This document shows positions 63,093-64,000 of a DNA stretch of 64,000 nucleotides, in pieces. Position 1 is the stretch's first letter; the number at the start of each line of letters is the position of its first letter. A program made the translations under genes and the position numbers. The DNA lies in the NCBI RefSeq assembly GCF_013149295.1, contig NZ_JABGCB010000001.1, positions 1 to 64,000 on the forward strand. Reading direction: 5' to 3'. This DNA is from Novosphingobium sp. SG751A (GTDB lineage Bacteria; Pseudomonadota; Alphaproteobacteria; Sphingomonadales; Sphingomonadaceae). Under the pieces are notes generated by a model that did not search any database, was not told where the DNA came from, and saw only the letters and a program-made list of their open reading frames with translations.

Positions 63093-63118
63093 GGCGGGCG
63101 GTTTTAGAGCCGCCCGCC
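63093..63118. terminator. GC-rich hairpin between convergent genes
   Basis: GGCGGGCGG pairs with CCGCCCGCC around an 8-nt loop, spanning the S24 gene stop. No T run follows on either strand, so it may be a 3'-end stabiliser rather than a true terminator. Confidence 0.5.
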
Positions 63119-63754
63119 CTTCCACACCACGCGGCCGATCACGGCCACTTCCTCGGGTGCCAGATCAATCGGATCATAGGCCGGATTGTCGCTTTTCAGG
63201 CGCACCCGCCCCGGATGTCCCATATCGATTCGCTTGACCAGCACATGGTCTCCCACGCGCACAACATGGATGCCATCGCGCAGGGCGCGGCGTGAGCGGT
63301 CGACCAAAATCTCATCGCCATCATTAAGCACGGGATGCATCGAATCCCCGGCCACAGCGATCGTCGTCAGATCCGCCGGGTTCAGCCCCATGCCTCGCAG
63401 CCAGCCTTGCGAAAAGCGCAGCGCGCCAAAGGGCTGCTCCGCGCCCGCAAACGCGCCCGGCCCGGCCGAGGCGTCGAGCGCAAGGCGGGGAACATCGACC
63501 CAATGCTGACGCGCCGGCTTTCCTATGGAAAAAAAGGATTTCTGCTCCATCCCGCCCAGCCGCGATTCGTCCACACCAAAGAATTGGGCCAGTTTGCGCC
63601 GGTCCCCCTCCTCCAGTTTGCGCGGGCTCCCTTTTTTGACAAACTGCTGTAAATAGCTGGAATTACGCCCAATCAGTGACGACAATGCCGCCAAGCTGAC
63701 CCCGCGTTCGGTCGAAAGAGCCATCAGAGTGGTTCGGGCATTTTCCTGTTCCAT
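63104..63754 (-). CDS. S24-family phage-repressor/LexA-like transcriptional regulator
   Basis: About 216 residues. An N-terminal helix-turn-helix (VSLAALSSLIGRNSSYLQQF) is followed by a C-terminal S24 peptidase domain with catalytic Ser in AVAGDSMHPVLNDGDEI and Lys in HVLVKRIDMG, the self-cleaving dyad of CI/LexA-type repressors. The start is ATG 63754. A TTG at 63760 is the alternative, but TATAAA at 63762-63767 sits at -13 to -8 from the ATG, suggesting a leaderless mRNA. A perfect palindrome, TAGGAAATTTCCTA, lies between the -35 and -10. No prophage genes are adjacent, so it is a chromosomal stress or regulatory factor. Confidence 0.9.
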   Translation of the reverse strand: MEQENARTTLMALSTERGVSLAALSSLIGRNSSYLQQFVKKGSPRKLEEGDRRKLAQFFGVDESRLGGMEQKSFFSIGKPARQHWVDVPRLALDASAGPGAFAGAEQPFGALRFSQGWLRGMGLNPADLTTIAVAGDSMHPVLNDGDEILVDRSRRALRDGIHVVRVGDHVLVKRIDMGHPGRVRLKSDNPAYDPIDLAPEEVAVIGRVVWKGGRL

Positions 63755-63761
63755 GTCCAAA

Positions 63762-63789
63762 TTTATAGCATAGGAAATTTCCTAGACAA
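63762..63789 (-). promoter_or_regulatory. promoter and palindromic operator of the S24 repressor gene
   Basis: On the minus strand TTGTCT (63789-63784), a 16-bp spacer and TATAAA (63767-63762) precede the ATG at 63754. The perfect 14-bp palindrome TAGGAAATTTCCTA (63771-63784) fills the spacer, the position expected for autorepression. Confidence 0.7.
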
Positions 63790-63867
63790 GACGGCAAAAG
63801 AATGAGAACAAATGAGCAACAGATTTGTCGAATCGGACGAATCGCCAAGGGAATAAAGGGGGCCTTC

Positions 63868-64000
63868 ATGCTGTTGCGAATAATTGAGGATTTCCTGTGC
63901 CGTACCGGCATGCCGTGGACCAAGTTCGGGCGCATTGTCGCCCATGATCCGCGCCTTGTGGGCGATATGCGCAATGGGCGCAGTCCCCGGTCCGATCTGG
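63868..64000 (+). CDS. partial gene for a small HTH-like protein (runs off right edge)
   Basis: From ATG 63868, behind AAGGGGG, an open frame continues to the window end (44 codons). It begins MLLRIIEDFLCRTGMPWTKF and continues with GRIVAHDPRLVGDMRNGRSP. The pattern TGMPxTxFGR...DPRLVxDLRNGR suggests a short Xre-like helix-turn-helix protein, by impression only. It faces away from the S24 repressor gene across about 110 bp that contain the palindromic operator, so co-regulation is possible. Confidence 0.6.
   Translation, partial: MLLRIIEDFLCRTGMPWTKFGRIVAHDPRLVGDMRNGRSPRSDL

Follow-up and report, generated by a model that had tools for sequence, protein, structure and literature searches.

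Phage immunity regions are known in several types, among them lambda CI/Cro, 434 and the Mu/D3112-type c repressor. On a bacterial chromosome, the nearest published precedent found for the locus described here is FddR of Francisella, which the available part of its report (PMC13148647) presents as a co-opted phage S24 repressor that is kept across the genus with its catalytic residues, is autoregulated via a palindrome in its own promoter and controls divergently transcribed genes. Analysis of a 64,000-nucleotide stretch of Novosphingobium sp. SG751A (contig NZ_JABGCB010000001.1, positions 1 to 64,000; hereafter the window) revealed near its right end a gene encoding an S24-family helix-turn-helix (HTH) repressor, P0001, with a palindrome in its promoter. 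On paper, this locus would work like FddR as described in that part of the report, combining a phage-like S24 repressor, a putatively autoregulatory palindrome and divergent genes. In contrast, the FddR operator given there, GTG-N11-CAC, was not matched here; the motif conserved at our locus is TCCTA/TAGGA, arranged as TAGGA-N4-TCCTA or TCCTA-N6-TAGGA, lexA is present, and many relatives have a LexA-type box in this intergenic region as well. With phage immunity regions the locus shares an S24 repressor gene and a small HTH gene that are divergent and flank the operators, and a 16-mer core that is identical in viral contigs (the window's own copy has three mismatches); it differs in being chromosomal and in having an extra conserved coupled gene. 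We consider it likely that this control region is a phage-type, CI/Cro-like divergent switch that is kept on the chromosome, represses itself and is probably wired to the SOS response. Searches of the open-access literature turned up no paper joining Novosphingobium, LexA and S24 and nothing on this gene; as far as those searches reach, the S24 switch is unpublished.

The elements of the promoter region, in window coordinates, are the following:

63104-63754, minus strand: S24-family HTH repressor gene P0001, 216 amino acids, predicted leaderless ATG at 63754
63762-63767, minus strand: -10 hexamer TATAAA, from sequence, with extended -10 TGCTATAAA from 63770
63771-63784, no strand: perfect 14-mer palindrome TAGGAAATTTCCTA, predicted operator of the TAGGA-N4-TCCTA type
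63784-63789, minus strand: -35 hexamer TTGTCT, from sequence, within the conserved core
63780-63795, minus strand: GCCGTCTTGTCTAGGA, the window's version of the core, three mismatches from the widespread core TCCTACTTGTCTAGGA
63806-63820, minus strand: LexA-like box GTTG-CTCATTT-GTTC, 7 of 8 bases, 10 nucleotides (nt) upstream of the conserved core

An earlier sequence-only reading of this DNA had proposed the layout TTGTCT, 16-bp spacer, TATAAA and ATG at 63754, and this layout was confirmed on the minus strand, with a gap of 7 nt between TATAAA and the ATG. The hexamers match the promoter consensus at 4/6 and 5/6 positions by our count, and most of the relatives shown have a hexamer starting with TA at a similar distance from the ATG. 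That the gene lacks a ribosome site was also borne out, as no Shine-Dalgarno sequence stands at a usable spacing and only GGA is found, one base ahead of the ATG. The palindrome had been said to fill the spacer exactly. It does not: the T that ends TTGTCT also begins the palindrome, and TGC separates the end of the palindrome from TATAAA. The genome scan for the palindrome which that reading had suggested showed that TAGGAAATTTCCTA occurs a single time in the 5.73-Mb genome. Merely as a palindrome it is unremarkable, since the window holds 11 perfect 14-bp palindromes (three of them overlapping) against 9.65 expected from 20 Markov-1 simulations. A wider regulon in the window genome was considered and rejected: TAGGAWWWWTCCTA with up to two mismatches gave 45 sites against 36 for its reversed control, leaving only the gene's own promoter arguable as a target. 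Both counts speak for a functionless chance palindrome in the spacer, but this explanation is contradicted by conservation in relatives, and we give it next to no probability. It is conservation that carries the case.

To follow the element across relatives, 119 regions upstream of the S24 gene were compared. Fifty-three were from the genus, taken from 58 genomes with a match after omission of G012, G019, G038, G039 and G052 (LexA-level or partial matches only); 66 further regions came from 97 genomes with a match (100 minus three already in the set), the last 40 having been hand-picked to spread over genera. The core TCCTACTTGTCTAGGA was present exactly in 78/119 regions, with at most one mismatch in 86 and with at most four in 102. 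Among 2,380 base shuffles, a core with three mismatches was reached by 2 and one with four by 20; because the 119 regions are kin, these shuffles overstate significance and give no clean probability. Conservation is highest for TCCTA-CTTGTC-TAGGA, behind which AAAATCCTA or a decayed arm usually stands. Within the 59 genus genomes, CTTGTCTAGGAAA was found in 33, with one site each, and all 33 sites lie at the S24 promoter. TCCTA-N6-TAGGA was found in 46/59 genomes, with 46 of its 49 sites at the S24 promoter and three elsewhere; its reversed control gave 1 to 26 sites per genome, a comparison that yields no exact rate, as the reversed words are commoner. TAGGA-N4-TCCTA occurred in 20/59 genomes, with 15 of 24 sites at the S24 promoter and nine elsewhere. 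The proposal that the 14-mer alone is the operator was thus not supported, the conserved unit being TCCTA-CTTGTC-TAGGA with further half-sites; TAGGAAATTTCCTA had been seen alone because the left arm of the core is decayed in the window. In contrast, the proposed autorepression is strongly supported, at the level of sequence, by this phylogenetic footprinting and by identical or similar operators that precede the gene in relatives from mobile elements and phages.

The core might instead be kept just as a promoter, with two overlapping divergent -35 elements in TTGTCTA/TAGACAA and arms that are no operator. In most regions CTTGTC is conserved to the same degree as the arms, which plain operator logic would not need. 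However, the arms recur at other spacings: several genomes have them again 14 nt upstream of the core, as TAGGA-N4-TCCTA, and mobile-element paralogues have them with N5. In addition, in a clade whose -35 is located elsewhere the arms are kept and CTTGTC varies. A promoter-only explanation is accordingly judged very unlikely.

The P0001 protein matched Peptidase_S24 in Pfam (1.3e-21) and the PHROG_4 transcriptional repressor family (3.9e-36); it had no match in PADLOC, and no HTH family was assigned to it in Pfam. Against TIGR00498 (LexA) it scored 28.5 bits, where the curated cut-off is 110.95. Because this score is far under the cut-off and the window genome has its own, separate lexA, P0001 is, by sequence, not LexA itself. 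The AlphaFold model of P0001 had a mean predicted local distance difference test score (pLDDT) of 83 and a predicted template modelling score (pTM) of 0.57. A Foldseek search with this model returned structures of the lambda-186 hybrid repressor, lambda repressor and LexA, the best being the lambda-186 hybrid and LexA; we attribute the low overall template modelling scores of these matches to the flexible linker. The N-terminal HTH has predicted helices at residues 2-17, 21-27, 34-40 and 49-59, and its Foldseek matches are full-length repressors. In 23 aligned relatives the Ser-Lys dyad S138 and K174 is invariant, as is A97-G98, which lies 41 residues ahead of S138 and may be the cleavage site. 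It is these invariant residues, A97-G98, S138 and K174, that suggest self-cleavage of P0001. Some P0001 match at 0.001 was obtained in 58/59 genus genomes and a match at 1e-40 or better in 54/59 by our count; G012, G019 and G038 had LexA-level matches only, G039 a fragment and G040 none. Across the order, 100/147 genomes had a match at 1e-25, including 78/86 of the window's family by our count, and these order-wide matches may include some mobile paralogues.

The sequence-only reading had set the palindrome apart from the LexA box and thereby implicitly left LexA out. This part could not be upheld, as a LexA-type box lies directly upstream in many relatives. GTTC-N7-GTTC is the LexA motif of alphaproteobacteria given in the accessible part of a published study (PMC3323433), and the lexA promoters of the genus, that of the window genome included, bear it. 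The resemblance of P0001 to alphaproteobacterial LexA lies in the S24 fold with its Ser-Lys dyad, to which the upstream LexA box of many relatives is added. A match of 7 or 8 of 8 bases within 60 nt, like that of the window, is given by about 3% of shuffles, so the window's box alone proves little. For the relatives, the 60 nt upstream of the core were scanned in the 109/119 regions with a core at up to six mismatches. The exact box was found in 34/109 regions, and in 28 of these its distance to the core is exactly 9 nt; shuffles gave 0.17%. In some genomes TAGGA-N4-TCCTA stands 14 nt from the core, in the same slot as the LexA box, and the LexA box and this second S24 operator seem, from their positions, to replace each other there; many regions have neither in exact form.

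The ATG was taken to be the first base of the transcript in the sequence-only reading, and the geometry in relatives favors this. An in-frame ATG was found 36 to 45 nt from the core start in 80/102 regions and 40 to 43 nt away in 73/102 (7, 40, 19 and 7, respectively), whereas any other single offset had at most 7 ATGs. An ATG at 40 to 43 nt from the core falls at the predicted +1. Leaderless mRNA is thus favored by promoter-ATG spacing, but the arrangement is not universal among relatives. The accessible part of a study of Caulobacter crescentus (PMC4117421) reports 375 leaderless mRNAs; the likeness to the present case is the ATG at the +1, which here is predicted from spacing. The open-access literature returned no paper on leaderless transcripts with Sphingomonas transcription start sites.

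On the other side of the element lies a gene that the sequence-only reading did not see, a conserved small HTH gene coupled to a second conserved gene:

63868-64000, continuing to contig position 64056, plus strand: divergent small HTH gene P0002, 62 amino acids, recognized by motif and model
64046-64471 of contig C1, directly past the window: conserved gene P0003, 141 amino acids, coupled to P0002

The P0002 motif is present in at least 100/119 upstream regions, and a profile adds G109 and G183. In 95/100 regions the next gene overlaps or abuts the stop of the small HTH gene. P0002 gave nothing near the cut-off in Pfam, nothing in NCBIfam, PHROGs or PADLOC and 0 matches in a profile search of the Protein Data Bank. 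Its model consists of four helices (pLDDT 87); in Foldseek, HTH folds of 434 repressor and of Cro type were matched weakly, at E 0.9 at best. By eye, the divergent genes may be transcribed from TAGACA and a hexamer about 19 nt away in the LexA box. P0003 belongs to no family in Pfam, PHROGs or PADLOC. A single-sequence search of 114 genomes of the class with P0003 matched two, the window genome and another genome from the same family; tblastn over 46 chromosomal loci found P0003 in 43/46 and the window's metallo-beta-lactamase (MBL)-fold neighbour in 38/46.

Since in lambda-type switches both proteins use common operators, the small HTH protein (Cro/Ner-like) could be the main binder of TAGGA/TCCTA, with the S24 protein binding elsewhere or just competing. 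Its gene, found in 100/119 regions, has a spread similar to that of the operator, and the P0002 model is a four-helix HTH. However, those Foldseek matches are weak, and two genomes of another family, G059 and G074, have an exact TAGGA-N4-TCCTA before the S24 gene and no small HTH found by regular expression or profile in the 0.7 to 0.8 kb fetched upstream, which favors binding by the S24 protein. We regard the small HTH protein as main binder as unlikely.

Relatives linked to mobile elements and contigs of a viral collection were also compared. S24 paralogues of 45 to 49% identity mostly keep the layout of a LexA-type box with TAGGA/TCCTA arms at other spacings. Large open reading frames beside the S24 paralogues in L047 and L049 read, by eye, as MobF/TraA relaxases. 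From sequence, conjugative elements may use the same switch. In the viral collection, the exact 16-mer was found in 28 contigs. It adjoins or overlaps an S24 homologue in 13/28, and in one more, cut by the contig edge, it stands beside a small HTH gene alone; the other 14 had neither homologue in the fetched stretch and were taken as chance. The 14 copies with an S24 or HTH gene represent 12 distinct flanks and hence not 14 independent cases. Nine of these 14 contigs have the small HTH gene; a P0003-type coupled gene was not seen beside any of the 14 copies. Upstream of the 16-mer, three copies have a LexA-type box and 11 a TAGGA-type palindrome, some with one base changed. A phage head gene (PHROG_220) is present in three viral contigs, most others being classed as phage by membership of the collection, and in the viral contig L282 non-phage genes adjoin the S24 gene, as at a prophage edge. 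The c repressors of Pseudomonas phages DMS3 and MP22 show 32% identity to P0001.

A tree of 131 S24 proteins, midpoint-rooted, with a bootstrap that had not settled and with no row from the 40 upstream-only loci, placed 90 chromosomal rows in one clade (support 97/95). Outside this clade are all 14 viral rows, the mobile-element rows and the Sphingomonas loci L059, L061 and L063. Inheritance within the 90-row clade looks vertical. Origin of the locus from a phage-type module is likely on this evidence from sequence, though the direction is not proven.

In the mechanism proposed here, the S24 protein would bind TAGGA/TCCTA half-sites around its own -35 and spacer and so block its own, probably leaderless, promoter. 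It would probably also repress the divergent operon of Cro-like HTH gene and coupled gene, because the same element sits between both genes. In many relatives LexA, on GTTC-N7-GTTC nearer the divergent gene, would act as a second lock. Upon DNA damage, LexA and the S24 protein would each cleave themselves, stimulated by RecA, and both locks would be relieved.

Several observations, in addition to the kinship of the regions, weigh against this mechanism or its generality. The core was absent at up to four mismatches from 17/119 regions, including the fragmentary genes of G041 and G045. In the window genome itself TAGGA-N4-TCCTA occurs once and TCCTA-N6-TAGGA not at all; the window and its two near relatives L033 and L034 retain a perfect right arm but a decayed left one, which reads GCCGT in the window. 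A consensus promoter scan listed no sigma-70 promoter here; the scan requires T as the last -10 base, where TATAAA has A. In the clade of the window genome the LexA-like box departs from the motif at one base, and 75/109 regions have no exact box. With respect to the leaderless start, 22/102 regions lack an in-frame ATG at 36 to 45 nt from the core. Of the 80 with such an ATG, ten are, in our reading, members of a clade in which TTGACG or a variant serves as a -35 further upstream; there a leader is present, often with a Shine-Dalgarno sequence. Shine-Dalgarno-like 4-mers occur in 31/80 regions, partly because the half-site AGGA overlaps the -10. By tblastn, the Sphingomonas loci L059, L061 and L063 have neither P0003 nor the MBL-fold neighbour, although a diverged P0003 motif is nonetheless visible in L059 and L063. 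The position of these three loci outside the clade, together with their lack of the neighbours, speaks against assuming a single vertical origin of the whole family.

The chromosomal neighbours in the window are MBL-fold, thioredoxin-like and cysS-like genes, and one further feature was recorded at the end of the S24 gene:

63093-63118, minus strand: terminator-like hairpin, one found against 1.0 expected in shuffles

This hairpin is GC-rich and separates the convergent S24 and thioredoxin-like genes. Elsewhere in the genus, a LexA box with a TAGGA palindrome was found as a candidate second target in 2/59 genomes, before a 30-codon peptide. The hydrophobic peptide is encoded behind a LexA box and TAGGATTTTTCCTA at L145:1426-1515 (minus strand) in G029 and at L146:1639-1728 (plus strand) in G025. 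Inspection by eye showed an inverted repeat rich in GC downstream of it, and the peptide had no match in Pfam or Rfam. Its sequence and setting suggest a small membrane peptide under SOS control, which may be a type I toxin. In L147, around position 1543 (G007:C6:391442), an operator-like promoter copy, AATCCAACAAGTCTAGGAATTTTCCTA, stands before a probable exported-protein gene, with a LexA-like fragment about 2 kb away.

Because the viral relatives use an identical 16-bp operator and the same layout of LexA box or second operator, a further, speculative reading suggests itself, which we hold to be doubtful: the chromosomal S24 protein may be a resident immunity repressor able to silence phages with the same operator, and the LexA box would tie this silencing and the coupled gene to SOS, making the locus a domesticated lysogeny switch common to host and phages across much of the family. 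If the switch is real, many members of a large bacterial family would keep a phage-type lysogeny switch beside their LexA system, a second case of repressor co-option next to FddR, and a role would be suggested for two unnamed conserved genes. The alternation of LexA box and second operator at one slot would record regulatory rewiring. One operator would serve host and phages, and cross-talk of DNA-damage control with prophages could be tested on a single DNA fragment.
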